A stretch of 37,365 nt of DNA from a virus, in the IMG/VR virus record IMGVR_UViG_3300050821_003429, positions 1 through 37,365 of that record, one strand, 5' to 3'. The position numbers and the translations under genes were made by a program. The notes beneath the pieces are model-generated. The model did not search any database. It saw only the letters and a list, made by a program, of their open reading frames with translations, and was not told the origin of the DNA. Of this stretch, positions 10,249-25,816 are shown piece by piece; positions within the stretch are counted from its first letter, which is position 1, and each line of letters opens with the position of its first letter.

Positions 10249-10259
10249 AGTAGTCTCCT

Positions 10260-10774: not shown

Positions 10775-10817
10775 GAGTTTTGCTTCTTCTTTCGTATCGC
10801 TTTTGAAGACAAACCTA

Positions 10818-11357: not shown

Positions 11358-11387
11358 TTTCCCCTCTTTTGAAGCGAATCTATAGCA

Positions 11388-12344: not shown

Positions 12345-12362
12345 GATTCTCCCTTTTTGGAT

Positions 12363-12662: not shown

Positions 12663-12819
12663 AAGCTTCCTCTTTTTTTGACAAGATCTCTTCTATTTTC
12701 ATCGCTACCAGTGCTGCTAAAATCCGATAAGCTTTATCGGTGTCATGGTGAAATTTATTAGCCAAATAGTAGTTTAAATATACACAATTAATTTCGTGTT
12801 CGTCCAATTCAACAATCAA
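12652..12819 (-). CDS. Small hypothetical protein, 55 aa, TTG start
   Basis: A TTG at 12819 overlaps the portal stop as TTGA and is preceded by GGGGGC. The 55 codons read as a plausible helical protein (VELDEHEINCVYLNYYLANK, then AYRILAALVAMKIEEIL). The 3' end overlaps the next gene by 11 bases. No family recognised. Confidence 0.6.
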   Translation of the reverse strand: MIVELDEHEINCVYLNYYLANKFHHDTDKAYRILAALVAMKIEEILSKKEEAYGD

Positions 12820-14693
12820 GCAGCCCCCGGAACGTTAGGGATCATTGGGGATTGAGGTAACGCCTGCGGTGCTGCCTGCGGAGGCCCCATCCCTGGGCCA
12901 GCAGCGGGAGGAACTGGAGGCATTGCCTTTTGCTTCAGCAGATTCACCTGATCGATGAACTTCCTCAACAACGACAGCTTCTCTTCTTCCAAGTTCGCAC
13001 ACTTTCCTTGAGCATAATATTCAAGAGCCAGTTCTGAAGCGAGTTGGAGGTCATCGAATGGTTCCGGGATCGTATAGACGCCATTGTCCACGATCTTTTC
13101 CAAGATTTCATGCAGATAATCTTCCTCGGAGTTTTGAAGATCCTCGATTTGCTCCAGATCCGGGAAATCGAGGAGACGCCTGCCGGCGCGTGGGGTGATA
13201 AATCCTGCCTGGATATATTCCTGAATCGTCTGAAGCCTACCCGCAGGATCATTGGGAAGAGAAGAAACCGGGAAGATCTTCATAATATATTCATCTTCTT
13301 GCAGATCGACATCTTTCCAGTCAATGGTTTTAATAAATTTCTTACCGGGTACTTTGACTTTATATTCGCCTTCGCGCTCGTAAATTTCTTTGGCAGCTTC
13401 AACTGAGAGCTTAGCAAGATCTAAGAAGAATCTCTCATAAGCTTGGCCTACCGTCATAAACCGATCCGTTTCGATATCGTTGTATTCTCTTAAGGCCTTA
13501 CCAGAATTAAGACCCGCCGGCTTTTGAGAAGCCGCAGAAAGCTGAGAAATCCCGGCCTGTTCATAGGCCATTGTCTTGATGGTTTGAATATGGGAATAGA
13601 CTTCGGGCTGAACGATAGGAGGAACAATATATTGAGGAGGCTCATTCCCAGAGATGATTGCTCCGATATCGTTATTGATATGTTCCTTAGGAAACTTCGA
13701 GCCATTCTTAATAAAAACCTTGAAGGTGCCAGCTAGGTGCATACTTCGCTGGACAACCCATAAGAGTTTATTGAGCTCGAGTTGAAGATTCTGGATCTGT
13801 TCAGCAAGGGCTTGCCCCCAGTAGCCGTACATCCTTTTACCCCACGAGAACTTAGCGAATGGAAAATGGTCCTTCTCCCATTTCTCTTCAAATAAGATAT
13901 GGCCATCGATCCAGATGACGTGAAGACCATCCTTGGCGTCCGGTCCAGACGGCAAGTGCCAGGACTCCCCAACAAAGATCTGGTCAGCTACATTCTGGTA
14001 TTGGCCCATGAGATCAGCTGAAGCGGAGTTAGCGGCCAGAATCTCTGATTTATGATTGGAGAAAAGGTCGACCATGACTGTTCGATCGACATTCTTGCCT
14101 CGATGGAGTTGTCTAGGAGAACCATAAAAGGCTTCTACCCAGTCCACGAAGAGCTCGGAAGCCATCACGCGCTCCCATTTTACTCTACCGTAATGTTCAA
14201 ATACGTGAATAAAGCCATCCCCAAAAACACCAGCGTCACGAAATACATCAGCTCCCAGTCGGTACGCTTCATTCTCGTAAAACACCCCATCCACAAACTG
14301 GTCGAGTTTCTTAGCCTTACGCTGCATCTTGTAATCCCCACCCGAAGTGAGGAAGAGCGGTTTAGGCTTATTCTTGCTGATCTTGGCCGTGACTGTGTCG
14401 ACGGTGCTTTGAACCAGATTGTAGGAGATTCGATCTTTGAGAGCATTGTTCACCGAAGCGATCTTGGTCATCGATAGGCCATTGAGACCCATGAGGTTAG
14501 TGTTCCCGTAGAGGCGGGTGCTGATCTGGTATTGGGTCTGCCTCTTGGAGTCATACTGGGCGATCGCCGTCATAATCTTGGCGAGAGATTCGGCACGCTC
14601 CTGCTTCGGGACTGCCCACCACCGAGCTTCGTATCGCCCACTGGGAGAGTTATCTTTCTGACCAGAGAGAGTGGTATAGTCTATGCGGGACAT
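12816..14693 (-). CDS. Portal protein, 625 aa
   Basis: The size and features fit the portals of short-tailed phages. The N-terminal region has TRLYGNTNLMGLNG and NLVQSTVDTVTAKISKNKP (about residue 93). A core with GVFGDGFIHVFE and RVMASELFVDW follows. A long helical region contains LNKLLWVVQRSMHLAG, and GISQLSAASQKPAGLNSGK lies at about residues 380-400. The C-terminus is Pro/Gly/Ala-rich. The start has GAGGAACAATC upstream and lies within the end of the preceding 80-aa gene. It is followed by scaffold and capsid genes, as expected for the dodecameric DNA-entry ring. Confidence 0.85.
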   Translation of the reverse strand: MSRIDYTTLSGQKDNSPSGRYEARWWAVPKQERAESLAKIMTAIAQYDSKRQTQYQISTRLYGNTNLMGLNGLSMTKIASVNNALKDRISYNLVQSTVDTVTAKISKNKPKPLFLTSGGDYKMQRKAKKLDQFVDGVFYENEAYRLGADVFRDAGVFGDGFIHVFEHYGRVKWERVMASELFVDWVEAFYGSPRQLHRGKNVDRTVMVDLFSNHKSEILAANSASADLMGQYQNVADQIFVGESWHLPSGPDAKDGLHVIWIDGHILFEEKWEKDHFPFAKFSWGKRMYGYWGQALAEQIQNLQLELNKLLWVVQRSMHLAGTFKVFIKNGSKFPKEHINNDIGAIISGNEPPQYIVPPIVQPEVYSHIQTIKTMAYEQAGISQLSAASQKPAGLNSGKALREYNDIETDRFMTVGQAYERFFLDLAKLSVEAAKEIYEREGEYKVKVPGKKFIKTIDWKDVDLQEDEYIMKIFPVSSLPNDPAGRLQTIQEYIQAGFITPRAGRRLLDFPDLEQIEDLQNSEEDYLHEILEKIVDNGVYTIPEPFDDLQLASELALEYYAQGKCANLEEEKLSLLRKFIDQVNLLKQKAMPPVPPAAGPGMGPPQAAPQALPQSPMIPNVPGAA

Positions 14694-14923
14694 GATTGTT
14701 CCTCGACTTCCTTGCGAGTTTTCTCTTTTGGGAGTTCTTCATGGTTTAAGTCCAGGCTAAACCGAACCTCTCCCGTTGTTCGATTCACTCCAACGACCCA
14801 GAACCTCATGCCAACTTCCCAGTGCTTTGCTGGAAATGGATCCGGATCAAAGAATGCTCGGAACATCCGATTGCTGCCGCCTACGGATTGGAATTCATAA
14901 AGTTCCGTGATGGGCTTATTCAT
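14681..14923 (-). CDS. Small hypothetical protein upstream of portal, 80 aa
   Basis: The sequence looks like a compact beta protein (RMFRAFFDPDPFPAKHWEVG, then RFWVVGVNRTTGEVRFSLD) with a charged tail (LPKEKTRKEVEEQ). Its ATG overlaps the stop of the previous gene as ATGA, and its 3' end overlaps the portal start by 13 bases. No family is recognised. Confidence 0.65.
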   Translation of the reverse strand: MNKPITELYEFQSVGGSNRMFRAFFDPDPFPAKHWEVGMRFWVVGVNRTTGEVRFSLDLNHEELPKEKTRKEVEEQSCPA

Positions 14924-15156
14924 TCCTCTGCCTTCGTCGGGATCAGAGGCTTCTCTTCTTCTTTAGGCCCAAACCCCTCGACAGCGGAGAACAAGAACTC
15001 TTCTTCAGTAGGGATCTTTCCGTTGTTGATGAGATCGGAGAGGACTACTGGAGTGTCCTGAATGTCGAAAACAGCCTCTAATTCTGGGGTTTTAATCGAT
15101 CGAATTCCAAATTCTTTACAGAGAGTAAAGACAGCTCTTACCTGTTCAATGTTCAT
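14920..15156 (-). CDS. Small hypothetical protein, 78 aa
   Basis: A soluble mixed protein (RAVFTLCKEFGIRSIKTPEL at the N-terminus, Glu/Lys-rich end). It is the first gene of the portal run and lies just downstream of a -10-like TATAAT (15176-15181) and an inverted repeat. No Shine-Dalgarno site is obvious before the ATG. The function is unknown. Confidence 0.6.
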   Translation of the reverse strand: MNIEQVRAVFTLCKEFGIRSIKTPELEAVFDIQDTPVVLSDLINNGKIPTEEEFLFSAVEGFGPKEEEKPLIPTKAEE

Positions 15157-15175
15157 TAGTTATAGGAGATCAATT

Positions 15176-15214
15176 ATTATATCTGTTGTCAATTGTTATA
15201 ATAATCTTGACAAC
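15176..15214 (-). promoter_or_regulatory. Candidate promoter and dyad upstream of the portal run
   Basis: On the minus strand a perfect TATAAT lies at 15181-15176. Upstream, 15185-15214 is an inverted repeat with 8-bp arms (GTTGTCAA and TTGACAAC) separated by 14 bases. The -35 at 17-bp spacing is poor (TTATTA) and lies inside the dyad, so a regulator bound there could act as activator or repressor. The site begins 20 bases before the ATG of the 78-aa gene. Confidence 0.45.
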
Positions 15215-15234
15215 CTTTTCCAGAGAGTGATGTA

Positions 15235-15480
15235 TTAATGCTTCTCCAAATATCGCAAATACATTCTTAGATCCCGATCCCTGCCTTTAAAAGAGATGTT
15301 AATCTCTTTAGATCCCTGCCTTTCAACCCGTGCTTGAGCTGGTTCGTTAAATAACTCGATCTGTTTAGTTTCGGACATTGAATTCTGTAACTGCGTTTCA
15401 TAAGTTCCACAGGGCATGAATCGTGGTGGTAGTTGACGGTAGTGTATCTTTTCAAGATGAACTGGTATAAGCACGTTCAT
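15235..15480 (-). CDS. Small hypothetical protein, 81 aa
   Basis: A basic soluble protein. It begins MNVLIPVHLEKIHYRQLPPR, and the second half has EINISFKGRDRDLRMYLRYL, which looks like a strand followed by a helix. The Shine-Dalgarno site is weak (TTGGA). It diverges from the plus-strand gene at 15583. No family recognised. Confidence 0.5.
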   Translation of the reverse strand: MNVLIPVHLEKIHYRQLPPRFMPCGTYETQLQNSMSETKQIELFNEPAQARVERQGSKEINISFKGRDRDLRMYLRYLEKH

Positions 15481-15582
15481 TCCAATAATCGAGATGGATT
15501 CAACGAAGGGATCGGGGAGTTACAAGTGTAACTCACATGGGACCGGGAACCAATACAGGCTAGCGAAAGGAAGATGGACTAA

Positions 15583-15822
15583 GTGATCAAGACAAACCAG
15601 CTCTACTACCCAGCCCTCTGCTCTTTAGGTGAGGATCGAGTGATGATCACGAACGAGCTTTACGAGAGTGAGGAAGAAGCAAAAAAGCACTACCCAGGGA
15701 TATTTTTGCGACTGGCCCGCGAGTGGCCGGCGATCGAGATCACCAAAGAGGTGGTTGAGCCGGTAGTGAATAGGAGTTTAGAGTACTTTCAGGATCTCAA
15801 AGAGAAGCTATCTAGGAGCTGA
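15583..15822 (+). CDS. Small hypothetical protein on the plus strand, 79 aa, GTG start
   Basis: This is one of the few plus-strand genes. A GTG at 15583 is preceded by AAAGGAAG at a rather long spacing. The protein reads well (YYPALCSLGEDRVMITNEL, ESEEEAKKHYPGIFLRL, EWPAIEITKEV) and resembles a small alpha/beta protein. It lies between two minus-strand genes and would need its own promoter in 15481-15582, where I see no strong consensus. Function unknown. Confidence 0.55.
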   Translation: MIKTNQLYYPALCSLGEDRVMITNELYESEEEAKKHYPGIFLRLAREWPAIEITKEVVEPVVNRSLEYFQDLKEKLSRS

Positions 15823-15835
15823 CGTCCTGACAGAA

Positions 15836-16069
15836 CTACTCGAACCTTCGCCGGTAACTATGGATTATTTTGACCATTTCCATATAGTACTCCTCGATAG
15901 ATATTTGACCCTGTTCTGTGGCGGTTAGCAGGGAATCGAAACGCTCGCCGTAGAAATGACCAATCTTTCCAATAGCCACGATCGGTTCCATTTCTGAACC
16001 ATCTTTGTGCTTCATTCGGAGCTTAGAGACTAACTTCTCAATGGCGTTGATTGCTTCTAAGAAGGTCAT
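15836..16069 (-). CDS. Small helical protein after terminase, 77 aa
   Basis: The ATG overlaps the TerL stop as ATGA, so translation is likely coupled. The sequence is helical (LEAINAIEKLVSKLRMKHKD, then ISIEEYYMEMVKIIHSYRRR). No family recognised. It could be a packaging or head accessory. Confidence 0.65.
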   Translation of the reverse strand: MTFLEAINAIEKLVSKLRMKHKDGSEMEPIVAIGKIGHFYGERFDSLLTATEQGQISIEEYYMEMVKIIHSYRRRFE

Positions 16070-17499
16070 ATCTCATTCCAAGGATCAGTCATTCCCCACT
16101 CATCGTCAGCCTTTTCACGTCTTAGCTGCGCTTGAGCGATCTCTTCCATCTCTTCTTCTTGCTGCTTTTGCCAGGCTGAGGTGGAGTAATGGGGTCGGAT
16201 AGGCTCGGGTTCGTAAAGCCAATGCAAAGCCTCTCGAAATGCATATAAGACGGCGTCGCAGATATCGGAATGGTAGCTGTCAGATATCCTAAGCTTGTCG
16301 GGGGAGAGTAGATCTCGATCCCATTCGACAAGCGAACAATCTTGCGCGAACTTACTTTCCATTTTGGCATAAAACTTTCCTGTTCTCATGGCGTCATTTA
16401 AGAGTTCGATGAATTCGAACTTTCTGGTCTTTTCCGCCGCATCAATCGGTAGCTGGTATCTCTGGGCCAACTCCTCAGCAATCTTCTTGCCCAGGCCCCC
16501 CGTATCCATGACTACTTTTATCGGCTTATACTTTTGGATCAGAGAGCCGATTTGTTCGGCAAGTTCGGTGATGCCTTGCTTTCGTTTGACTACTTCTTCA
16601 ACGAGATAAGCTTCTTTACTCTTTTCGGACCATCCGACTACCGAAATGGCGTCCGCGTCATCAAACCCGAGATCCACCCCGATAACAAAGCTCCAGCCAT
16701 TACTTTGGGGTCGTTCAGAATAGTGATTCCTAGAAGATTCATAATGAAATACGAGGGAATCACTATCCACAACCCAACGACCAAAACACTCACGCTGTAT
16801 TTTAGGATGCTCAAGCCCTACCCCCATCCTTTCACAGTCGGCTTGGATGAGTGCTTGTGGGGTTTTCCCGCTTTTTTTAGCAAGATGCGGGTTTTGGAAC
16901 ATCGTCCATCCATGGTGTGCCCACGCTTTAGAATGCGCGCAATCATGGAAGTATCCCGCCGGTACGAGCGCAGGAGTTCCGATAAGACAGAGCGTTCCCG
17001 CGTAGTCAAATAAGGCCTTGGATAATACATCGTCCACAAGATCCTGGATATATCCTCGGAATGACTGGCATTCGTCAATATAGACCTTTTTAAGCGGGAG
17101 ACCTCGGAAGTTCTCGATTTCACTTTTGTCTTTCGCACCGGAGACATAGATCACACTCCCATTAGGAAACTTCAGTGAGAGATCCGTCTCGTTCGCTCGA
17201 CCATTCAGCGTGAACAGTCTGTTAAGCTTCAAAAGCTCTGGCCAGATGATCCTCTTAGCATTAACGCGGCTCAGTGTAATGTATAAACAGACAATTCCCT
17301 CGTGCTTGAGGGCTGTATCCATAAGATCAGCAGCACACGCAATCGTCTTTCCAGATCGCCTGGAGCATACTGCCGTCTTGAACTGAGCAGGATCTTGAAT
17401 GAACGCCAACTGCTCATTAAAGCAGAATAGTTTAATATTAAACTGGCCTTTGTTTTGTTCTCGAAGAGTTGCTAAAGCCAGATCAAGACGAAGATTCAT
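16066..17499 (-). CDS. terL: Terminase large subunit, 477 aa
   Basis: This is the packaging motor and headful nuclease. The ATPase half has a Walker A-like SRRSGKT (residues 46-52), Walker B VYIDE (139-143) with the catalytic Glu, and a GTP coupling segment near 174. The nuclease half has GVDLGFDD (Asp276), VVMDTGG (Asp332) and SDICDA (Asp412, Asp415), giving the acidic residues of an RNase H-like fold. The C-terminus is Gln/Glu-rich. A TTG seven codons upstream is possible. The ATG at 17499 is preferred because it overlaps the stop of a tiny upstream frame as ATGA and gives a family-typical length. Confidence 0.92.
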   Translation of the reverse strand: MNLRLDLALATLREQNKGQFNIKLFCFNEQLAFIQDPAQFKTAVCSRRSGKTIACAADLMDTALKHEGIVCLYITLSRVNAKRIIWPELLKLNRLFTLNGRANETDLSLKFPNGSVIYVSGAKDKSEIENFRGLPLKKVYIDECQSFRGYIQDLVDDVLSKALFDYAGTLCLIGTPALVPAGYFHDCAHSKAWAHHGWTMFQNPHLAKKSGKTPQALIQADCERMGVGLEHPKIQRECFGRWVVDSDSLVFHYESSRNHYSERPQSNGWSFVIGVDLGFDDADAISVVGWSEKSKEAYLVEEVVKRKQGITELAEQIGSLIQKYKPIKVVMDTGGLGKKIAEELAQRYQLPIDAAEKTRKFEFIELLNDAMRTGKFYAKMESKFAQDCSLVEWDRDLLSPDKLRISDSYHSDICDAVLYAFREALHWLYEPEPIRPHYSTSAWQKQQEEEMEEIAQAQLRREKADDEWGMTDPWNEI

Positions 17500-17564
17500 T
17501 CTCGATATTCTAAATAGCAAACCACGACTAAGATCAAGATGATTCCAATATCAATGAGAAGCAT
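17496..17564 (-). CDS. Possible 22-aa membrane peptide upstream of terL
   Basis: ATG at 17564 opens a 22-codon frame encoding MLLIDIGIILILVVVC and a short charged tail, a single membrane segment. It overlaps the previous gene by 14 bases and the terL ATG as ATGA. There is no clear Shine-Dalgarno site. It may only serve to couple terL translation. Confidence 0.35.
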   Translation of the reverse strand: MLLIDIGIILILVVVCYLEYRE

Positions 17565-17829
17565 CTAGGATTTTTGGTCGTCCAGGTCCTCTCTTGAGGT
17601 CCACAGATACTTCAGATTCAAGTTCTTCGTCTAGATTGAGAACTTGAGCAAAGGGAACTACAACGGCTTTATCCATTCCAGGCTTAGTGATTCTAATGCC
17701 CACCGGATGGTATTCGATCGTCACATTGTGCATCGTGAGATCCAAGGAACTCCTCGATCCAACGGGTTGAGGAAGGGTGACAGTGGTTCCTTGGGTGAAG
17801 ACGACTCGTAGAATCTTAGGTTTAGTCAT
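17551..17829 (-). CDS. Small beta-rich protein with AT-hook-like tail, 92 aa
   Basis: AAAGGAAACT precedes the ATG. The body is beta-rich (ILRVVFTQGTTVTLPQPVGS, then VTIEYHPVGIRITK). The C-terminus has KRGPGRPKIL, which matches the GRP core of AT-hook DNA-binding peptides. DNA binding is only suggested by this motif. It lies directly upstream of terL. Confidence 0.6.
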   Translation of the reverse strand: MTKPKILRVVFTQGTTVTLPQPVGSRSSLDLTMHNVTIEYHPVGIRITKPGMDKAVVVPFAQVLNLDEELESEVSVDLKRGPGRPKILDASH

Positions 17830-17840
17830 AGTTTCCTTTC

Positions 17841-18071
17841 TTAACTAACAATTTTTCGGATCGAGCTAAGAGCGTCACTACAAACCCCTAACATGAATTC
17901 CGCTGACCGTTCGGAAAGAACGATACATTCGTCTTCTCTGAACCCCATTACACCTTTATCATCTACTCTCACATCGACATATTGAATCCTTGGGCCTAGC
18001 TCATTCTCTTTCTCTGCATATTCTTTTTTATTATAGATTTTGAATCTCATAAGATCTTTTGTTTTTTCCAT
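17841..18071 (-). CDS. Small hypothetical protein, 76 aa
   Basis: A soluble charged protein (MRFKIYNKKEYAEKENELGP, then RVDDKGVMGFREDECIVLSE) with a final helix. It overlaps the preceding 54-aa gene by 25 bases. No family recognised. Confidence 0.6.
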   Translation of the reverse strand: MEKTKDLMRFKIYNKKEYAEKENELGPRIQYVDVRVDDKGVMGFREDECIVLSERSAEFMLGVCSDALSSIRKIVS

Positions 18072-18211
18072 TCTTTGTATGCTTTCCAGTCCTTCTCAAG
18101 GAGGATTTCCCACATACGTCTCATTCCTAAATCTATTTCTCTTTTAACTGCCTCTATGAACTCTTTCTCATTCTCCGGCTTTGGATGGACAATAATAGGG
18201 CAGTATTTCAT
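18047..18211 (-). CDS. Small basic helical protein, 54 aa
   Basis: The ATG overlaps the stop of the GNAT-like gene as ATGA. The protein begins MKYCPIIVHPKPENEKEF and continues as amphipathic, Trp-rich helices (MRRMWEILLEKDWKAYKEW). No family recognised; the regular composition supports real coding. Confidence 0.6.
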   Translation of the reverse strand: MKYCPIIVHPKPENEKEFIEAVKREIDLGMRRMWEILLEKDWKAYKEWKKQKIL

Positions 18212-18738
18212 ATCAAGTAAGGGTTATACACCCAGTTCGGATATTTCTTCGCGATCCATTCATCAGTAGAATCGTTTTTGCAGTAATTTTGATTACAAAA
18301 TCCAACAATCGCTGGTGGTAACGGAGCTCTGTGTGAGCACGACCATAAACGGCAAAGGTGTGTGTAAGATACTTCGTCTTGTTGCTTAATATTGAGTATT
18401 CCGATCAATTTAGTAGCAATGCCCAATCTTTGGAATTCTCTTTTAACAAAAAGATATTGAATAACTACACATTGGCGATCTTCATGTGGAGAACGAACTG
18501 CACTGGCGACCAGATACCCTATGATCTGATCGTCGTCGTCCGGAGATACCGCCACGTAAACCTTTACCATAGGAGAGTCTAAAATAGCGGCAATCACTCT
18601 TTTATGGTGTCCAAAAAAAATCCGATGAGGAACTTTCCTGGCGAAATAAGACATCATTTTGTAGGATTTTAACCAGCTTGAAACCACAAATGGGAAGTCA
18701 GCAGTCTTAAATGGACGGATTTGGATATCTGGGGTCAC
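18208..18738 (-). CDS. GNAT-like N-acetyltransferase, 176 aa
   Basis: A GTG start lies directly after the TerS stop, with GGGAGAG upstream. The GNAT order is visible: N-terminal IQIRPFKTADFPFVVSSWL, a strand with VKVYVAVSPDDDDQIIGYLV, then CVVIQYLFVKREFQRLGIATKLI. The last region carries the R/Q-x-x-G-x-A/G acetyl-CoA loop as QRLGIA (about residue 107). The C-terminus is Cys/Trp-rich. Such enzymes occasionally sit beside phage terminase genes. The substrate is unknown; modification of host or virion proteins is possible. Confidence 0.75.
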   Translation of the reverse strand: MTPDIQIRPFKTADFPFVVSSWLKSYKMMSYFARKVPHRIFFGHHKRVIAAILDSPMVKVYVAVSPDDDDQIIGYLVASAVRSPHEDRQCVVIQYLFVKREFQRLGIATKLIGILNIKQQDEVSYTHLCRLWSCSHRAPLPPAIVGFCNQNYCKNDSTDEWIAKKYPNWVYNPYLI

Positions 18739-19188
18739 TTACTCTCCCTTAAGTTTCACCAATTCTTCTTCCACGATCTGGATCAGTGCTGCCCGATCCA
18801 TCTGCTGGAATTCTTGTGCGGCTTGAATAATTTGTTCCACGGGTCCCCCGTCAGGTCCAGACAATTCTGTCGCCCGTCTCTTTGCGTACAAATACTGAGC
18901 AGCTTCTGAGGCAGCTCGAAGACGTTGATCAAGGGTGATCGGGTTCGGGTCTTTGAGCGCTTCGTTATTGCCAGCAGCAAACATGAAAAGCACATCGAGT
19001 GGATCTACGCCGAGGGCTTTCGCTCGGTCTTGTAGACTGCGTCTGTCTTTGTTGATAGATCCTTTGGGTCTGCCGCCCATCGGGGCATGTCCTGGTTGGA
19101 ATGGCATAGTTCTTGATAGTAAATTATTAAAGTCGGATATTGTCAACTGTTTCTTTGAAAGCGCCGGCAGACTAGCTTTGACACTCAT
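18739..19188 (-). CDS. Probable terminase small subunit, 149 aa
   Basis: The N-terminal third includes MPFQPGHAPMGGRPKGSINK, a basic DNA-contact-like stretch seen at the start of many phage packaging proteins; ATG 19188 or the internal ATG of that stretch could be the real start. A helical domain follows (AKALGVDPLDVLFMFAAGN, LDQRLRAASEAAQYLYAKR), then ELSGPDGGPVEQI and an acidic helix at the C-terminus. Similar proteins with LGVDP and LSGPxGGP sit immediately before phage terL genes. It probably recognises the packaging start. Confidence 0.65.
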   Translation of the reverse strand: MSVKASLPALSKKQLTISDFNNLLSRTMPFQPGHAPMGGRPKGSINKDRRSLQDRAKALGVDPLDVLFMFAAGNNEALKDPNPITLDQRLRAASEAAQYLYAKRRATELSGPDGGPVEQIIQAAQEFQQMDRAALIQIVEEELVKLKGE

Positions 19189-19224
19189 TTGATTTGCCTA
19201 CCGGCGCACAGACCGGATAGAAAC

Positions 19225-19260
19225 TTACTTCTTACCGCCCTTTTTCTTTCCTTTAGCCAT
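19225..19260 (-). CDS. 11-aa lysine-rich micropeptide with perfect Shine-Dalgarno
   Basis: AAGGAGGTGA, a full match to the 16S 3' end, lies nine bases before an ATG that opens a 12-codon frame: MAKGKKKGGKK and stop. A hairpin with 7-bp arms (ATTTCTA/TAGAAAT, 19278-19307) lies just upstream. Such a strong site in front of so short a frame suggests real translation, perhaps as a nucleic-acid-binding peptide or a translational leader for the TerS gene. Confidence 0.45.
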   Translation of the reverse strand: MAKGKKKGGKK

Positions 19261-19328
19261 GTGATCTCACCTCCTTTCATTTCTAGACATTGGTAGATCT
19301 TTAGAAATGACAGGGGTTATTGGCGCAG

Positions 19329-19628
19329 TCAATAACTATTGGCGGATTTCAAAAATTTTTGGCGACACTTTTCGCAGCGTAATTTCGGAAATCGATGATT
19401 GATCTTCTTTTTACAATCGATGCAGCTCTTTACTCGGCAATCCGAGCAGATTTGTGAGAAATGGTACGTCTTCTTTTGATTACAGGCGGTGCAGGTAGGT
19501 TGGCGATCTTCTCGGTTCCATGAGAATAACGACCACTCTTTGCTCTGTACCAAGTAATCTGATCGGTTGGCATCAGCTTCATACTTCTTCAACCTTCTTG
19601 AATTGGTAAATCCCAGGTTCATTAACAC
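19329..19628 (-). CDS. Cys-rich zinc-ribbon protein, up to 99 aa
   Basis: The C-terminal 60 residues contain four Cys pairs: CTAC, CSDC, CIDC and CEKC, consistent with two zinc ribbons or a rubredoxin-like knuckle array. The start is uncertain: GTG 19628 and an ATG two codons later lie inside the previous gene. An ATG at 19582 that overlaps the previous stop opens a different, Cys-free frame of 50 codons. Nucleic-acid binding is plausible. Confidence 0.6.
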   Translation of the reverse strand: MLMNLGFTNSRRLKKYEADANRSDYLVQSKEWSLFSWNREDRQPTCTACNQKKTYHFSQICSDCRVKSCIDCKKKINHRFPKLRCEKCRQKFLKSANSY

Positions 19629-19779
19629 TGATCGTGGCGATTACTGATCGACATCGGCCACAAACCAGATCTCCCCAGATTTTGTCCCCATTCAAAGAAT
19701 CTTTTTGCATCTGATCAATGATCATCGGTGCATCATAATCGCAAGATCCACAATAAATGCGAACATCGCCTAAAGACAT
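19579..19779 (-). CDS. Small zinc-ribbon protein, 66 aa
   Basis: Two Cys pairs (CGSC near residue 10 and CGRC near residue 40) are separated by about 30 residues, the spacing of a zinc ribbon. The end is beta-like (IYQFKKVEEV). It overlaps the previous gene by 10 bases. The role is unknown; it is probably nucleic-acid- or protein-binding. Confidence 0.6.
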   Translation of the reverse strand: MSLGDVRIYCGSCDYDAPMIIDQMQKDSLNGDKIWGDLVCGRCRSVIATISVNEPGIYQFKKVEEV

Positions 19780-19979
19780 GCGTAAATCGGTTCCATCTTG
19801 TAGCTTTCGGCTTTCTGGTTCTTCACCAGCTTTATCCTCAGCTCATCGTTCTCTTTCGCCAACCGGATAATAGCTTCTCGAAGAGCAGTGATCTCGGACT
19901 GGTGGTTACAAACGGATTCGGTTTCTTTCATCTCTCGACTCCAATTCCAGTCGTCATCATTTCCAATCATTGTCTTCAT
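19770..19979 (-). CDS. Small coiled-coil protein, 69 aa
   Basis: The N-terminus is polar (MKTMIGNDDDWNWSREM), followed by a heptad-like helix (SEITALREAIIRLAKENDEL). GAGGGCGAT, the 3' arm of an 18-base hairpin, provides the Shine-Dalgarno site, so translation may depend on hairpin opening. It follows the hypervariable protein gene at 20035. Function unknown. Confidence 0.55.
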   Translation of the reverse strand: MKTMIGNDDDWNWSREMKETESVCNHQSEITALREAIIRLAKENDELRIKLVKNQKAESYKMEPIYACL

Positions 19980-19987
19980 AATTTATC

Positions 19988-20005
19988 GCCCTCTTTTCAG
20001 AGGGC
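19988..20005 (-). repeat. GC-rich hairpin with GAAA tetraloop downstream of variable cassette A
   Basis: On the coding strand GCCCTCT-GAAA-AGAGGGC forms a 7-bp perfect stem and a GNRA loop, 24 bases beyond the end of the cassette shared with the second gene. DGR target genes such as Bordetella phage mtd carry a similar short GC-rich hairpin with a four-base loop just after the variable region, where it promotes retrohoming. It also covers the Shine-Dalgarno site of the next gene. Confidence 0.6.
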
Positions 20006-20029
20006 TAATGATCTAATAATTAATTAATT

Positions 20030-20224
20030 CACGCTCAGCGGCCACCGACGCAGACGACCGATCCATTGCCATTGCTGCGATCGCCGCTGAAGATGCCGCC
20101 ATTAACGCCATTGAAGAAGTAGGCGACGGCGGGATCGTTAGGGTTCCCCGACGACGACCAAAACCACCTATTGCTCAGATCAAGCACTTCTCGAATTCCA
20201 TGCTCTTCACCGATCTCAAATTCT
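20030..20224 (-). repeat. Hypervariable cassette A (195 bp, paired with 20825-21019)
   Basis: Aligned without gaps to cassette B at an offset of 795 bp. The first 37 and last 79 bases are identical. All 20 mismatches fall in 20067-20145, 19 of them at first or second codon positions. This is the pattern of a DGR variable repeat diversified at template adenines. Confidence 0.85.
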
Positions 20225-20439
20225 CCCTTCGTGGGAAGTCTTTTCTTTGAAGAAGAATACTTTTTCGTGGCATCATCGTGATTGTACTTCCTTTTTTCTG
20301 GCTGACGCCATTCCAATTTCGTCTTTTGATCCAAGAATCCGCTCTTAGTTTTTAAAAATGTGAACCCCTTTGAAGTAATGACTCGATCTCCGATCTTTAA
20401 TTCTTCAAATCTAGGTTTTCTTAAATCAATTGTTTTCAT
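20035..20439 (-). CDS. DGR-type variable protein A (C-type-lectin-like), 134 aa
   Basis: The N-terminal half (IDLRKPRFEELKIGDRVITS) is shared in pattern with the paralogue at 20830. The C-terminal half has REVLDLSNRWFWSSSG, a variable stretch, then GSVVCVGGR at the end. This is the ending of the C-type-lectin/sulfatase-modifying-factor fold used by DGR target proteins. Variable residues here are Asn, Asp, Val, Phe, Ile and Gly in codons ending in C or T. The ATG overlaps the RusA stop as ATGA. Likely a binding protein; virion or host location is not known. No signal peptide. Confidence 0.8.
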   Translation of the reverse strand: MKTIDLRKPRFEELKIGDRVITSKGFTFLKTKSGFLDQKTKLEWRQPEKRKYNHDDATKKYSSSKKRLPTKGEFEIGEEHGIREVLDLSNRWFWSSSGNPNDPAVAYFFNGVNGGIFSGDRSNGNGSVVCVGGR

Positions 20440-20816
20440 CCTATTCTCTCCAGTTCAATATCAATTCCTACTCGTTTATCTGTCCAGTCGTATAGCTTCC
20501 TTGCCATTAGAGCTACAATCTGTGAATCGTCTTTCCAGAGAATCCCATTAGCAGCATCTTTGACAGCCTTGATCAGGTTATCCAGATCCGGTCTGACTGT
20601 GTGGTGTTCTCGGACCTTTTTTTTGGGTTGTCCCATGTAGAATACGAATTTTGCTCTAATCGCCCCTAGAATCGGTTCTTGTTTATATTGGGCTCTCAGC
20701 ATCATGGCGACGGCACTTTCATACTGCTTGGTCTTTTGTGGAGTATACGCCCCATTCCTGCCCAGTCTTGGCCTTAATTTCGGCTGAGGAGAAATGGGAA
20801 GAAATAATCGAATCAT
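20436..20816 (-). CDS. rusA: RusA-family Holliday junction resolvase, 126 aa
   Basis: From the ATG at 20816 (GGTGGG upstream) the protein has the length and motifs of RusA: N-terminal LPISPQPKLRPRLGRNG, then a region with TVRPDLDNLIKAVKDAANGI, whose Asp residues (RPDLDN) are the catalytic set, and DDSQIVALMARK near the end. RusA dimers resolve Holliday junctions during recombination-dependent replication or packaging. The frame stays open upstream into cassette B, but the homology starts at MIRLFL. It lies between the two variable-protein genes. Together with ERF it makes a recombination set. Confidence 0.9.
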   Translation of the reverse strand: MIRLFLPISPQPKLRPRLGRNGAYTPQKTKQYESAVAMMLRAQYKQEPILGAIRAKFVFYMGQPKKKVREHHTVRPDLDNLIKAVKDAANGILWKDDSQIVALMARKLYDWTDKRVGIDIELERIG

Positions 20817-20824
20817 TAACCCAC

Positions 20825-21019
20825 CACGCTCAGCGGCCACCGACGCAGACGACCGATCCATAGCCATCGCTGCGATCGAAGCTGTCGAAGCTGCCATTAT
20901 CGCTAAAGAAGACGTAGGCGTAGGCGGGATAGTATGGGGACCCCGACGACGACCAAAACCACCTATTGCTCAGATCAAGCACTTCTCGAATTCCATGCTC
21001 TTCACCGATCTCAAATTCT
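20825..21019 (-). repeat. Hypervariable cassette B (195 bp, paired with 20030-20224)
   Basis: Same cassette as A with 20 substitutions in 20862-20940 and perfect flanks on both sides. The identical downstream flank extends beyond the stop codon, which protein-level selection alone would not keep. I see no GC-rich GNRA hairpin downstream of this copy. Confidence 0.85.
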
Positions 21020-21240
21020 TGTTTAGAAGGTAATCGATCTTTGAATTTTTTCACCGCTTCATCATGAGAATAATTACCTTCTTCTTTTGAACTCCAAATC
21101 AATCCAGAGCTTTCATCTTTCCACGATTCTTTTCCATCTGAATCTCTTGAGAGAAGAACAAAAGAGTGCCCGCTAGAGGTAATCACTTCTGTTCCAATTT
21201 CAACTTTTCTCAAATCTGGCTTTTTAAGATCTATTTTCAT
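20830..21240 (-). CDS. DGR-type variable protein B (C-type-lectin-like), 136 aa
   Basis: The ATG at 21240 aligns with the start of paralogue A; a TTG further upstream is less likely. The N-terminal domain (IDLKKPDLRKVEIGTEVITS, then SGLIWSSKEEGNYSHDEAV) has diverged from A. From EFEIGEEHGIREVLDLSN onward the DNA is identical to A except in the variable window. Variable residues here are Ser, Tyr, Val, Phe, Asp, Gly. The end GSVVCVGGR is conserved. Likely a binding protein with the same fold as A and a different specificity. Confidence 0.8.
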   Translation of the reverse strand: MKIDLKKPDLRKVEIGTEVITSSGHSFVLLSRDSDGKESWKDESSGLIWSSKEEGNYSHDEAVKKFKDRLPSKQEFEIGEEHGIREVLDLSNRWFWSSSGSPYYPAYAYVFFSDNGSFDSFDRSDGYGSVVCVGGR

Positions 21241-21341
21241 TTTATTCCCAAATGCTTCTTCAAAACCCAAAGGACCTTTTCTGCATAGAAACGGTCCCTA
21301 TCTTTCTGTTCTTCTTTTTTCTGTGCAAGCCACTGAGTGAA

Positions 21342-21665
21342 TCATTTCTTTTTGACCTCGACAAACTCGGTCCAATAGGTATCAGGGGCAGGATATTTCG
21401 CTAAACAATAGTTTTTGTTCTCATCGAACAGTTTATCAAGTGCTGATTTTAGAAATTCTGGCTTTACCCAAATTCTATTCCGTTTCTTCTTCACCAGCTT
21501 CCGGCATTGCTTGGGATGAAGTCCTCGTCCTGCTACGCCGTCATCCGTGGTGACCTGGACATAGTCTTCCTTTGCGTAGTCCACAGTCCCAGTCCATCTT
21601 TTGGCTCCTTCTCCTTCTAGGCCAAAGTAGCAAGCGACACGATCGCCTTTCTGAAACTTGTTCAT
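21342..21665 (-). CDS. Hypothetical protein, 107 aa
   Basis: It begins KFQKGDRVACYFGLEGEG and WTGTVDYAKEDYVQVTTDDG, which resembles an SH3/KOW-like small barrel. The C-terminal half is basic and helical (KPEFLKSALDKLFDENKN). The Shine-Dalgarno site is AAAAGAAGA. Nucleic-acid binding is possible. A frame with protein-like composition but no start codon continues after its TGA towards 21240. Confidence 0.6.
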   Translation of the reverse strand: MNKFQKGDRVACYFGLEGEGAKRWTGTVDYAKEDYVQVTTDDGVAGRGLHPKQCRKLVKKKRNRIWVKPEFLKSALDKLFDENKNYCLAKYPAPDTYWTEFVEVKKK

Positions 21666-21700
21666 TTCTTCTTTTCCATTTCTCTATTCCTGACTTCTAT

Positions 21701-22129
21701 TCAAAAATCAATTAAAGTAACCAATGATCCTTCTTCTTTCCTTTGACTATATTGATCCAATGCGTACCCCTCTGAGATTCGAATCTTACCAGAGTAGTAT
21801 CCATTATGATCTAATCTAGTCTCAAAATCGACATAGCCATTGGATGTCATTATTTTAGACCCCATAGTTTGGGTGACTTCGTAACCCTCTTCTTCAAAGG
21901 GCTGCGTCCATTCGGCATTTTCTATATTCAGAATCGTCGACCCAGTTAAATTTTCTGCTCCAGAAATATGAGCCAAGTAGCAATGAGAACAACAATTACC
22001 TACCCAAGAAAGATACAGCGGACCTGTTTCAGTCTGTAAGACAATGACGTCTTTATCATCATTGATCGACGCAGAGATGACCTTCTTTCCAGCTAGTTCA
22101 CCCATCGTCAATTCTTTATATTCGTTCAT
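21701..22129 (-). CDS. DUF7448-like protein, 142 aa
   Basis: The ATG at 22129 overlaps the stop of the previous gene as ATGA, with AGAGGAAGAG upstream. The sequence has MGELAGKKVISASINDDKD, then YLSWVGNCCSHCYLAHISG and GSTILNIENAEW. The GNCCS-x-C motif and following pattern are those of a small phage/bacterial domain of unknown function (DUF7448 as I recall). The Cys cluster could bind a metal. Function unknown. Confidence 0.65.
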   Translation of the reverse strand: MNEYKELTMGELAGKKVISASINDDKDVIVLQTETGPLYLSWVGNCCSHCYLAHISGAENLTGSTILNIENAEWTQPFEEEGYEVTQTMGSKIMTSNGYVDFETRLDHNGYYSGKIRISEGYALDQYSQRKEEGSLVTLIDF

Positions 22130-22296
22130 CTCTTCCTCTTCTCCATTTCTCTCTTCCAAATCTCTCGATACTTCTGTTTCATGCTTTCTGGCAAGTTCTT
22201 CATGAGATCAATCACGACTTGAATGTCTCCTTTTCGGATCTTTTCGATCATCCAGTCCTCTAAAGTCAATGCCTCGGACCAGTCCAATGATTTCAT
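22126..22296 (-). CDS. Small helical protein, 56 aa
   Basis: The frame reads SLDWSEALTLEDWMIEKIRK and DIQVVIDLMKNLPESMKQKY and ends in a very basic tail. Its stop overlaps the DUF7448 start as ATGA. No strong Shine-Dalgarno site is visible. No family recognised. Confidence 0.6.
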   Translation of the reverse strand: MKSLDWSEALTLEDWMIEKIRKGDIQVVIDLMKNLPESMKQKYREIWKREMEKRKR

Positions 22297-22321
22297 TTTG
22301 TTGAATCAACAATCGAATATT

Positions 22322-22546
22322 TTATTCTGGTAGCCCTTTAATATGTTGCACGAGATGAGCAATCTCTTCTTTTAAGATATTCACGTAAATGAACTCGGCA
22401 CCTAGATCATCATCTTCGGTCAATTCTTTTGCAATTATCCTTCGAAGTCTTAGGATCTCCTCGGCCATGCGCTGAACATGTCCAGAACGGCCATCGGTGA
22501 TCGGGTGATGCTCAAACTCCTTCGCGATCTCACGCCAGTCAGTCAT
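22322..22546 (-). CDS. Small helical protein, 74 aa
   Basis: GGAGATGATAC precedes the ATG. The protein is polar and helical (MTDWREIAKEFEHHPITDGR, then RMAEEILRLRRIIAKEL and ILKEEIAHLVQHI), possibly a coiled coil. Function unknown. It is near the start of the leftward early gene run. Confidence 0.65.
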   Translation of the reverse strand: MTDWREIAKEFEHHPITDGRSGHVQRMAEEILRLRRIIAKELTEDDDLGAEFIYVNILKEEIAHLVQHIKGLPE

Positions 22547-22567
22547 GTATCATCTCCAAATGCGAGA

Positions 22568-22729
22568 TCAGTGATCATATGCTAACCCCTTTTGGATCTC
22601 CTTAGCTTCGCGAAACGAGAGACTGAAGATATGCGGGTATTTGTCTGTGGTTTTGAGAGAAGGGCCGGGCTTGATACCGGCTCTCCTGGCGACCTCGTTT
22701 AAGCCTAAGATGAGAACGCCCGCTTTCAA
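22568..22729 (-). CDS. Possible 53-aa protein, TTG start
   Basis: A TTG at 22729 opens a frame reading LILGLNEVARRAGIKPGP, then KTTDKYPHIFSLSFREAKEI. The composition and the EVARRAGI helix look like coding sequence, perhaps part of a small DNA-binding protein. GATGAGG lies about 10 bases upstream. One arm of a 21-bp inverted repeat falls inside the frame. Confidence 0.45.
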   Translation of the reverse strand: MKAGVLILGLNEVARRAGIKPGPSLKTTDKYPHIFSLSFREAKEIQKGLAYDH

Positions 22730-22792
22730 GGTTCACTAGCCTCATCTTATTGGGTATGTCCTTCCACACTGCCTTCTCTCAAAACCACAGAC
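22643..22792. repeat. 21-bp perfect inverted repeat around a 108-bp segment
   Basis: Arms 22643-22663 and 22772-22792 are exact reverse complements (core CTGTGGTTTTGAGAG). Nested inside are GCCGG/CCGGC around an 8-base loop (near 22664-22682) and 9-bp arms TAAGATGAG/CTCATCTTA (22706-22714, 22741-22749). RNA from either strand would fold into a multi-branched structure. It lies just downstream of a minus-strand promoter candidate. Confidence 0.75.
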
Positions 22793-22801
22793 TTACTCTA
22801 T

Positions 22802-22829
22802 TTTATATCATAAATGGTACAACATGCAA
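22802..22829 (-). promoter_or_regulatory. Candidate leftward promoter
   Basis: On the minus strand TTGCAT (22829-22824) and TATAAA (22807-22802) are separated by 16 bases. It would drive the early small-gene run leftward from about 22795, immediately before the 21-bp inverted repeat. Confidence 0.5.
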
Positions 22830-22838
22830 CACAAATTA

Positions 22839-22844
22839 TATACT
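22839..22844 (+). promoter_or_regulatory. Candidate -10 box for the plus-strand RNA
   Basis: TATACT lies about seven bases before the first hairpin of the proposed RNA. The -35 region is poor, so strength or activator dependence cannot be judged. It is back to back with the leftward promoter. Confidence 0.4.
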
Positions 22845-22850
22845 TAGGGT

Positions 22851-23056
22851 ATTTAGGTCCCCGCGTGGACCCGGACGCCTTTCAGCGCCCGTAAATAATG
22901 CTCCTAGTTAACGAGTGAGGAGCGTCCTTCTCGGCGATTTTCAGATTGTGGTTGATTTATTTCGGTGAATCACCGATAACGGCTCAATCATAATCTTGCT
23001 CGCAGCTAGATTAATAATGCCCGTCGGCAGAAATGTCAACGGGCATTATCTTTTTT
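22851..23056 (+). ncRNA. Putative structured non-coding RNA, about 205 nt
   Basis: No convincing plus-strand gene lies here, yet the strand carries a succession of strong helices. GGTCC/GGACC is at 22856-22871; GGAC/GTCC (22873-22876, 22924-22927) stacks on GCTCCT/AGGAGC (22900-22905, 22918-22923). A 12-bp stem joins 22944-22955 with 22984-22995 using two G-U pairs, and encloses a 6-bp hairpin (TCGGTG/CACCGA). A rho-independent terminator ends the unit. G-U pairs that would be A-C mismatches on the other strand favour the plus strand. I do not recognise the family. The interval 22730-23055 otherwise holds only promoters and the inverted repeat. Confidence 0.6.
23014..23056 (+). terminator. 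Rho-independent terminator
   Basis: An 11-bp perfect stem (ATAATGCCCGT and complement) with a 14-base loop is followed by a C and six Ts. It fits termination of plus-strand transcripts. On the minus strand there is no equivalent T-run. Confidence 0.85.
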
Positions 23057-23235
23057 CACTGCTCCCGAATTACTTGGTCTCCCAAAGAATAGATCGTATT
23101 GTTACTTACAAGCTCAATCAGGAGTTGCGCAAATGGTTCCGGTGTCAATAACCGTTGCCGCTTAGAAAGTCGCTGGCAAACGCCTGTCTTGATAACTCTA
23201 GCCCTCTCCTCTTTCGAGAGATACCCAAGATCCAA
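23056..23235 (-). CDS. Possible 59-aa protein, TTG start
   Basis: The frame reads LGYLSKEERARVIKTGVC, LSKRQRLLTPEPFAQLLIEL, then NNTIYSLGDQV. That is a convincing protein-like sequence with no standard ATG. The TTG at 23235 lies 10 bases after the stop of the upstream gene, so coupled translation is possible. The frame stays open further upstream with a CTG. Its stop overlaps the T-run of the plus-strand terminator. Confidence 0.5.
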   Translation of the reverse strand: MDLGYLSKEERARVIKTGVCQRLSKRQRLLTPEPFAQLLIELVSNNTIYSLGDQVIREQ

Positions 23236-23245
23236 CCGAATCCCA

Positions 23246-23464
23246 TTATTTTTTGTGACATCTGCACTCGCATTTTTCAGATTTAAGGTTTGATCTTGGC
23301 TTCATGGCTTCAAAAATATTCAGACTCAAAAAACCGATGCATTCTGAATGGCGATTCTCAAAACACTGGATGCTTAAAGCAGGCAAGTCCTTGTTAGAAG
23401 AACCGATTAGAATTCGAATCTTTTTATGTGGCTGATCTCTGCCACCTTTAAATGTATTTCCCAT
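23246..23464 (-). CDS. Small Cys-rich protein, 72 aa
   Basis: The N-terminus is basic, the middle has LPALSIQCFENRHSECIGFL, and the end has CECRCHKK, a Cys-x-Cys-x-Cys-His cluster typical of small phage zinc proteins. The ATG begins about where transcription would start from the TATAAT at 23475-23470, so it may be translated leaderless. No Shine-Dalgarno site is present. Confidence 0.6.
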   Translation of the reverse strand: MGNTFKGGRDQPHKKIRILIGSSNKDLPALSIQCFENRHSECIGFLSLNIFEAMKPRSNLKSEKCECRCHKK

Positions 23465-23527: not shown

Positions 23528-24754
23528 CTATTCTCTTCTAAAAAGAATAGACCTATTTAGACTGTGCAAACCGATTAGCCTTTTGAAGGCTTCCCGCACT
23601 TGCGCTGGAACAACGGCGTTGCCCAGCCCGCGCAAACGGTCTACTCGGTGCGTCCCTACCGTTTTTGTGCGTTCAAGCGCCCCAAGGCGATCAAACACTT
23701 GCTGCTGCAGGTCTTGTGCTGGTGGGAGTCCAGAGGCGTAAAATCTTCCCCACAGATCACGCAATTCCCCATCTTCTTCGAGCCACGGCCCCAAGTTCCT
23801 TTTTTGACGTGCTCTTCCTTGTGGCATCCCTGGCATAAGATCACGAAGGTGCTCGGAGTATAGATCGGGTGATGACGTTGCAAGTTCTCGCCGCTCCCAC
23901 ACTGAGCGCATGATTTGCCAGAGAGCGATATAAGACGTTGGGTCGCTTTTCGGACGGTTGCCTTCTGCATTCATCTTCTCCTCGTTTTTGCCCAGCGGGA
24001 AGCCCATGGCTCTAAGCGCGTCCAATTCAAAGGGTATCCCATTAGCCACTCGACCCACATCGGGTTCAAACTCCCACCACCGCCGCCCTTGTAGGAGGGG
24101 CGATCTCCCGAGCTCCCACTGAATCGCGCCTGCTCCATATCGCTGATCGTAACCATGCTCGCCGTCGGCCAAAGATTCTTGCGGGCCATCGTGCTCAATG
24201 AGCCCTTGCTTTCGGCTTTGCCTTCTTTGACTCCGTGATTGTTGCTCCCGTAGTCCGCTGCCGTTGGCGTGGGCAAGTAAGAACCATCGTTCCCGCAAGT
24301 GCGGGGCTCCCACTTCCGCGGCTGATACAACCGTCCACCGACAGTCATACCCCAACGCAGTGAACTCCAACAAAACGCGATCAAGCCCCCGAAGAGTGAT
24401 AGCTGGGACGTTTTCCAAGAAAACGAATCGTGGTCGAAGCTCGCGAGCGAGTCGAATGATTTCAAAGAATAGCCCGGATCGCTCTCCTTCCAAGCCTGCT
24501 CCAAGTCCTGCAATACTGATATCCTGGCAGGGGAACCCGCCGTAGATGATATCCACGGGTCCACACATAGAGCCCCGCAAGGTGCGCACGTCGTCCCAGA
24601 CCGGACCCAAGGGCAACCGACCTTCGGCCATCCGTGAAAAGAGAACTGCTTGGGCGTGTCGATCGTTTTCACAATAGGCGACTGGCCACACCCAAGGTTC
24701 CAGGGCAAGAGTGATTCCGCCGATACCGCTAAATAGATCCAGCCCATTTAACAC
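23528..24754 (-). CDS. dcm: C5 cytosine DNA methyltransferase, 408 aa, GTG start
   Basis: All main motifs are present: I (DLFSGIGG, residues 6-13), IV with catalytic Cys76 (GGFPCQDIS), VI (ENV, 114-116), VIII (RERWF, 154-158) and X (GLGNAVVP, 376-383). The enzyme would protect phage DNA or alter regulation. EPDVGRVANGIP (230-241) is usually followed closely by motif X in phage relatives, as I recall, but here about 120 extra residues separate them. Those residues coincide with an HNH gene encoded in another frame of the same DNA. The start is GTG 24754, with GGGGTGA upstream. Confidence 0.88.
   Translation of the reverse strand: MLNGLDLFSGIGGITLALEPWVWPVAYCENDRHAQAVLFSRMAEGRLPLGPVWDDVRTLRGSMCGPVDIIYGGFPCQDISIAGLGAGLEGERSGLFFEIIRLARELRPRFVFLENVPAITLRGLDRVLLEFTALGYDCRWTVVSAAEVGAPHLRERWFLLAHANGSGLREQQSRSQRRQSRKQGLIEHDGPQESLADGEHGYDQRYGAGAIQWELGRSPLLQGRRWWEFEPDVGRVANGIPFELDALRAMGFPLGKNEEKMNAEGNRPKSDPTSYIALWQIMRSVWERRELATSSPDLYSEHLRDLMPGMPQGRARQKRNLGPWLEEDGELRDLWGRFYASGLPPAQDLQQQVFDRLGALERTKTVGTHRVDRLRGLGNAVVPAQVREAFKRLIGLHSLNRSILFRRE
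23656..23970 (-). CDS. HNH endonuclease nested inside dcm in another frame, 104 aa
   Basis: The ATG directly follows the TGA of the 258-aa alternative frame and has GAGGAGAAG upstream. The HNH core is clear: C21-x2-C24, RHH at 32-34, C46-x2-CH at 46-50. A second zinc cluster (C70-x2-C73, C88, C92) and an ending with GRLNAQKR follow, both familiar in phage HNH proteins. The whole gene lies within codons of dcm between the VANGIP region and motif X. This fits insertion of a mobile nuclease that left the dcm frame open. Cleavage site unknown. Confidence 0.8.
   Translation of the reverse strand: MQKATVRKATQRLISLSGKSCAQCGSGENLQRHHPIYTPSTFVILCQGCHKEEHVKKGTWGRGSKKMGNCVICGEDFTPLDSHQHKTCSSKCLIALGRLNAQKR
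23971..24747 (-). CDS. Methyltransferase-associated protein encoded in an alternative frame of dcm, 258 aa
   Basis: ATG 24747 begins seven bases after the dcm start, in the other frame shared with the HNH gene. Several segments look conserved rather than random: FDHDSFSWKTSQLSLF (104-119), MTVGGRLYQPRKWEP (134-148), GSYLPTPTAADYGSN (155-169) and LNPMWVEWLMGYPLNWT (227-243). I recall proteins with SW-x-TSQ, LPTPTA and LNPxWVEWLMGxP motifs associated with phage cytosine methyltransferases; their function is not known to me. The stop abuts the HNH start. The absence of stops over 258 codons opposite a real gene supports dual coding. Confidence 0.6.
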   Translation of the reverse strand: MGWIYLAVSAESLLPWNLGCGQSPIVKTIDTPKQFSFHGWPKVGCPWVRSGTTCAPCGALCVDPWISSTAGSPARISVLQDLEQAWKESDPGYSLKSFDSLASFDHDSFSWKTSQLSLFGGLIAFCWSSLRWGMTVGGRLYQPRKWEPRTCGNDGSYLPTPTAADYGSNNHGVKEGKAESKGSLSTMARKNLWPTASMVTISDMEQARFSGSSGDRPSYKGGGGGSLNPMWVEWLMGYPLNWTRLEPWASRWAKTRRR

Positions 24755-24848: not shown

Positions 24849-24946
24849 TTGAATTCACTGACAGCGATGATCACTAAGTCAATGAACATTCCTAGGATTC
24901 CGATGATGGAAATTCCGGCGAATAGAAAGAACGCCCAGTCTCTCAT
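24845..24946 (-). CDS. 33-aa single-pass membrane peptide
   Basis: The frame begins MRDWAFFLFAGISIIGILG, followed by more hydrophobic residues. Its ATG overlaps the ERF stop as ATGA and its stop overlaps the next micro-gene as ATGA. The function is unknown; small membrane peptides of this type can act in superinfection control or lysis timing. Confidence 0.5.
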   Translation of the reverse strand: MRDWAFFLFAGISIIGILGMFIDLVIIAVSEFK

Positions 24947-25608
24947 TTTGCCGCCTCAATCCCCGCCTCCAAGAATTCTACTAAATCACTCAGTTGCTCT
25001 AGACTGAGGAACTTCGATTCTCCGACCTTGTACCGTTCTTGTAGTAGGCCAGCATAGATCGTATTCGGATAGGCCGTCATAAAGGGCCTATAAATGGCCG
25101 CCAATCGCTTCGTTAGGGCTTCTCGATCCTCTGGGAAGGACTTTTGTACTTCTTGAGCCTTGGGCGGTTTAACGACAATAGGAGTTGGTTTATCAACCGA
25201 CTCTGGTTTTTTAGGAAGTGAGGCAGAATTTCCATCATCATCATCTGCTGGAGCAATTCCGACCATAGCCATCAAAGAGTAACGTCTCGCATAGGTGACA
25301 CAAGAGCCATAGGACTGAGGAGAAGGATCCCTAGGAACCAGAATCAGTTCACTGGTCACGAATTGTCCCGAGGAATGAGAAAGAAGCGTCGTAAGCCCAA
25401 CATTCCCTTCCGCAGTCGTAAAGGGCATCTGCATGACTGCCAAATCGTTCTTTGAAAGAGGTCCGCGACAAGCCTCTAAAATGCTTGCAAGATCAGCATA
25501 GGCATTCTTGAAGTGCGGGTTGACGCTGTCTTTAACAGCATCCCGAATTTCTCCTTGAGCTTGAGAAAGAGCATGAGTGAGCTCGTTGATCTGTTCAGAT
25601 TTATTCAT
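24943..25608 (-). CDS. erf: ERF-family single-strand annealing protein, 221 aa
   Basis: ATG 25608 has GGAGGGAGAA upstream. The first 140 residues carry the ERF signature: KDSVNPHFKNAYADLASIL, LVPRDPSPQSYGSCVTYARR, then MVGIAPADDDDGN. A Pro/Lys-rich linker and a helical C-terminal domain follow. ERF proteins anneal complementary single strands and support recombination and genome circularisation. With RusA it forms the recombination module. It follows the 68-aa small gene by one base. Confidence 0.88.
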   Translation of the reverse strand: MNKSEQINELTHALSQAQGEIRDAVKDSVNPHFKNAYADLASILEACRGPLSKNDLAVMQMPFTTAEGNVGLTTLLSHSSGQFVTSELILVPRDPSPQSYGSCVTYARRYSLMAMVGIAPADDDDGNSASLPKKPESVDKPTPIVVKPPKAQEVQKSFPEDREALTKRLAAIYRPFMTAYPNTIYAGLLQERYKVGESKFLSLEQLSDLVEFLEAGIEAAK

Positions 25609-25609
25609 A

Positions 25610-25816
25610 TTATTCTCCCTCCAAATCTTCCTTGAAAGAAAGATTGATTCCATCCATTCCTAGCGAAGTTTGGAACAATTTAACCGCTTCTACAGAACTC
25701 ATTCCTCTTTCGAGATTAAAAATCATTACCGTTAGTTTTTGTCGGATTAAATCTACCGTGTGCTCTACACCCATTTCAACAGCCTCAGTTAAATTCTTTG
25801 CTATCTGAATTCCCAT
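25610..25816 (-). CDS. Small regulatory-region protein, paralogue of 26316-26516, 68 aa
   Basis: The core (IAKNLTEAVEMGVEHTVDLI, then RQKLTVMIFNLERGMS) matches the plus-strand protein at 26316 (IAKTLKQAAELGPEHTADLL, RQKLTVLLYQLQLGMD) over almost the whole length. The two genes sit on opposite strands either side of the HTH regulator. Helical, soluble, no known family. A role linked to the regulator is inferred from the layout. Confidence 0.7.
   Translation of the reverse strand: MGIQIAKNLTEAVEMGVEHTVDLIRQKLTVMIFNLERGMSSVEAVKLFQTSLGMDGINLSFKEDLEGE

Follow-up and report, generated by a model that had tools for sequence, protein, structure and literature searches.

The locus described here raises the question of how a phage genome can carry two hypervariable cassettes of the diversity-generating retroelement (DGR) type, and yet encode neither a reverse transcriptase (RT) nor a template repeat (TR). 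The window, i.e., the whole stretch of 37,365 nucleotides that was analyzed, is the IMG/VR record IMGVR_UViG_3300050821_003429, the first and last 19 bp of which are identical (terminal repeat). When the ends are joined, one 540-codon frame crosses the 37365/1 joint without a stop; therefore, the record most likely represents a complete genome of ~37.35 kb with a circular map. A second contig, IMGVR_UViG_3300021432_000047 (positions 1-13729), is 100% identical to positions 9724-23452 of the window, in reversed orientation, over 13,729 bp. Both variable regions (VRs) are identical in this contig, so that the only second assembly shows zero VR variation.

The two cassettes, VR-A and VR-B, are spaced by 795 bp and belong to two genes on the minus strand, along which the gene order is B, RusA, A (Table 1). 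Between the cassettes there are 20 substitutions, all inside 79 bp, and none in the flanks of 37 and 79 bp (116 bp); the probability that all 20 would land by chance in a 79-bp segment of 195 bp is ~1.4e-8. Nineteen of the 20 are at the first or second codon position, whereas the sole third-position change is silent (CCT/CCA, both Pro). All 14 non-synonymous codons keep the same third base, C or T (NNY), in both copies. Transversions account for 17 of the substitutions, and C is found only once among the 40 variable letters (20 sites in two copies). Our recount agrees with the preliminary description in the coordinates, the number and codon positions of the substitutions and the variable codons ending in C or T, as well as in the extension of the identity past the stop codon, which we find to reach 5 bp (GCGTG) beyond the stops of both genes. 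The minus-strand orientation of the genes is an addition to that description. As in a DGR target, the variable region is sharply bounded and 3'-terminal within the gene, with its changes at positions 1 and 2 of NNY codons.

Table 1. Coordinates of the cassettes, the hairpin and the genes discussed in the text.
Feature	Position	Strand	Remark
Cassette A (VR-A), 195 bp	20030..20224	-	sequence comparison
Cassette B (VR-B), 195 bp, without downstream hairpin	20825..21019	-	sequence comparison
Variable segment, copy A, 20 differing sites	20067..20145	-	
Variable segment, copy B	20862..20940	-	
Hairpin GCCCTCT-GAAA-AGAGGGC	19988..20005	- (sense strand)	24 nt beyond VR-A
Gene A, 134 aa, Lcl_C/DUF1566-like, C-terminal variable part	20035..20439	-	
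Gene B, paralogue of A; 136 aa when started at ATG, with TTG at 21270 as an alternative	20830..21240	-	
RusA endodeoxyribonuclease, encoded between genes B and A; ATG 13 nt past gene B stop	20436..20816	-	
ERF-type single-strand annealing protein	24943..25653	-	

This substitution pattern would be expected if AAC and AAT codons of a template had been randomized, and adenine at the variable sites of such a template is consistent with it. However, at six of the 20 sites the copies have G and T, and neither has an A; A is seen in one copy at only 14 of the 20 sites (p ~0.06). Published error profiles of the BPP-1 RT show that, in most contexts, with NAC as the exception, misinsertion of G (read as C in the sense strand of the VR) is disfavoured (PMC12875486). 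In view of this error profile, the scarcity of C and the excess of transversions would fit an RT that seldom places G opposite A.

In their 5' parts, the two genes are old paralogues, with 46% amino acid identity over the first 67 aligned residues, and the cassette consists of the last 190 coding bases and 5 bases past the stop. Because the 5' parts are 46% identical and the identity of the cassettes continues past the stop codon, the copying of the cassette took place at the DNA level. The identical flank of 79 bp, on the 5' side in coding orientation, contains 19 adenines, none of them changed, whereas BPP-1 has only one adenine ahead of its first changed site. Such a flank is more readily accounted for by copying of the cassette than by mutagenic homing as the sole process.

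The gene ends had also been called lectin-like, which is hinted at by Lcl_C (PF07603) scores of 18.3 and 17.4 bits (E 0.003), below the curated gathering cut-off of 34.9. The AlphaFold model was of poor quality (pLDDT 51), and its matches to PDB structures are meaningless. The PDB sequence search yielded no relative, and the searches of IMG/VR, phages and plasmids yielded no protein relatives of A/B except the proteins themselves. In analogy to known DGR targets, a ligand-binding role would be the most likely guess for the variable face.

We compared the window to 80 IMG/VR records related by terminase, including the identical contig; the others have 45-62% identity. In local tblastn searches of the related loci, terminase, portal and major capsid protein were well conserved, and neither of the VR genes nor RusA had a match. 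Because of this difference, the VR genes can be assigned to an accessory region that is variable. The A/B-type gene was absent from the 50 TerL relatives searched, except for the identical contig; a weak Lcl_C match in one of the relatives (G035) contained an internal stop and was rejected. Several other features of the window can be mentioned. A GNAT acetyltransferase gene (18208-18738, minus strand) is near the terminase, and homologues of this gene are present in 48 of the 79 related loci; in BPP-1, a GNAT gene likewise adjoins the terminase. A C5 cytosine methyltransferase gene (23528-24754, minus strand), with a Pfam match over its first half only, is absent from the related loci. Genes at 21701-22159 and 27234-27629 (minus strand) encode the functionally uncharacterized domains DUF7448 and DUF5675, and a pair of diverged direct repeats (39 bp each, 60 bp apart) is found at 2158-2256 within a long minus-strand reading frame.

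An important property of phage DGR targets is a hairpin downstream of the VR, with a GC-rich stem of 7-10 bp and a 4-nt loop of the consensus GRNA in the sense strand, at a distance of 4-34 bp from the VR; in BPP-1, this hairpin is needed for efficient homing (Guo et al. 2011, PMC3240598). VR-A is followed by exactly such a structure (7-bp stem, GAAA loop, 24 nt distance), which is the only GRNA hairpin of the genome; no second GC-rich stem of 7 perfect base pairs with a 4-nt loop is present. As a control, the same scan of BPP-1 returned a single GRNA hairpin, namely the known hairpin adjacent to the VR, and the scan of 79 related loci (990 kb) returned one GRNA hairpin, a terminator-like structure after a gene. 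Using the rate from these 79 relatives, ~3e-5 hairpins are expected by chance at the VR-A position. The VR-A hairpin has no T-run, and its AGAGGG is close upstream of an ATG at 19979, so it may double as the ribosome-binding site of the next gene. The DGR-type target suggested in the preliminary description is strongly supported by this GAAA-loop hairpin at VR-A. VR-B has no downstream hairpin; the RusA ATG starts 13 nt after the gene B stop, and thus gene B has no space for one.

The absence of the machinery, which had been reported together with an apparently complete genome, held up in profile, masked and closure analyses. The RT profile (PF00078) had no match in the window or in the 80 related IMG/VR records, whereas the control, BPP-1 brt, was detected at 9.2e-19. 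No RT remnant was seen in the genome, and there was no Pfam match to an Avd-type accessory protein among the scanned subset of the ORFs. A masked scan of the window detected no third copy of the cassette that could serve as a template (best non-cassette score 53-54 of 120). In the coding strand, a matching template would read GGGGNNCCNNACNATCCCGCCNNCGCCTACNTCTTCNNTNGCGNTAATGGCNGCNTCNNCAGCNNCGATCGCAGCNATGGCNATGGATCGG, with A at N. The search for a template outside the window did not produce one: four patterns in IMG/VR, covering both flanks and the inside of the variable region, matched the identical contig only, and the 5'-flank pattern in GTDB genomes had one match, inside a GTC-rich repeat of an actinobacterium, which was discarded as a chance match. 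Because RT and template, the two defining parts, were both sought and neither was found, the locus should not be classified as a DGR; A and B can be classified as DGR target genes, the adenine correspondence of which is putative.

We consider it probable that A and B are DGR target genes with the RT and the template outside the phage genome, external supply being the most likely source. Under this explanation, mutagenic retrohoming from an adenine-bearing template would have rewritten the 79-bp C-terminal segment at VR-A, the hairpin-bearing copy, and the entire 195-bp cassette would also have been copied from one gene to the other, probably through ordinary recombination and perhaps via the phage ERF protein, which could help either cassette copying or cDNA integration. 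The RT and the template would come, or would have come, from a DGR of the host chromosome, a prophage or a co-infecting phage acting in trans. We infer that gene A is the authentic target, and gene B obtained its cassette by copying; this order of events would also explain the unchanged adenines of the 5' flank. A related reading, in which the phage has the target side of a DGR only and exploits the RT and template of its host, a prophage or a co-infecting phage to diversify two of its non-tail genes, is put forward tentatively, with somewhat less than even confidence. It should be noted that several observations speak against the explanation as a whole: no RT or template was found, the six sites are without A, the flank adenines are intact and VR-B is without a hairpin. 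Furthermore, the VR-A hairpin overlaps a possible ribosome-binding site and similar hairpins act as terminators, and the second contig, 100% identical over both VRs, gives no sign of diversification.

The last observation would also be expected if diversification had stopped, i.e., if the phage lineage recently had a full DGR and lost the RT and TR, leaving two frozen target genes. This is a real possibility, because new variants are absent from the only second assembly, although we regard it as rather unlikely. The present genome, without RT or TR, is what such a loss would leave behind, and strains of Treponema denticola without RT and TR retain remnants of target genes (PMC4891356). Conversely, because the related phages are without RT or the target gene, both a gain and a loss would be needed within the lineage, and there is neither an RT remnant nor any decay of the flanks. 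Supply in trans is favoured over loss for two reasons: traces of an RT are absent from the relatives, and a phage without RT can be supplied in trans under laboratory conditions, as shown by BPP-1 with a deletion of avd-TR-brt, which was diversified from a plasmid (PMC3240598). For PB-PSB1, a cellular case of trans supply has been inferred (PMC10907252).

If no DGR was involved, paralogues would have been homogenized by recombination, and positive selection would have altered a surface loop. The ERF annealing protein encoded by the phage and the true paralogy of A and B are in line with this view. However, 20 changes in 79 bp versus 0 in 116 bp, the lack of third-base changes in the 14 altered codons and the excess of transversions are hard to obtain by ordinary mutation, and the hairpin match would have to be an accident, which makes this explanation improbable. 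Finally, a falsely closed or incomplete assembly, the real genome of which carries the RT and template, is highly improbable: the terminal repeat is just 19 bp and closure rests on one assembly, because the second contig spans only 9724-23452, but the joint lies within the uninterrupted 540-codon frame, the genome size is near that of the longer related records (many 34-39 kb), themselves without RT, and a phage DGR RT adjoins its target (e.g., BPP-1), whereas the target region here is covered twice without a gap.

If this phage carries a bare target and uses the machinery of another genome, DGR surveys that start from the RT undercount diversified genes; an RT-based survey indeed states that remote targets are missed (PMC8144416). 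A hypervariable gene would then not necessarily imply a DGR in the same genome, and trans-hypermutation across genomes would occur in nature. The combination of a hairpin and paired VRs offers a route to orphan targets without an RT. The position of the targets, beside RusA and not among tail genes, is unusual for a phage.

There are precedents for remote targets within one cell genome and for remnants of target genes in Treponema strains without RT. In the literature searched, which covered few subscription papers, there was no complete phage genome with VR/target genes and a hairpin but without RT or template. The T. denticola remnants (PMC4891356) are similar in being target genes without RT and TR, but they are bacterial and have known RT-positive sister strains, whereas no RT-positive sister phage is known here. 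The remote or trans targets of cyanobacteria (PMC7517822) and of Thiohalocapsa PB-PSB1 (PMC10907252) are likewise away from the RT and have a 3'-terminal VR; these share a cell genome with RT and TR, whereas the targets described here are in a phage genome with neither. Proteins A and B have the RLP..EF...WFWSSS arrangement of DUF1566/Lcl_C (PF07603), at the below-cut-off score of 17-18 bits. DUF1566 is mentioned in DGR papers. Compared to the BPP-1 DGR (mtd VR, TR, brt, avd), the phage is without brt, avd and TR, has two target genes, and carries these among replication/recombination genes (RusA, ERF) and not among tail genes; the two systems share a C-terminal VR, the adenine-compatible codons of which occupy the 3' end of the gene, as well as a single GC-rich GAAA-loop hairpin downstream in the sense strand.
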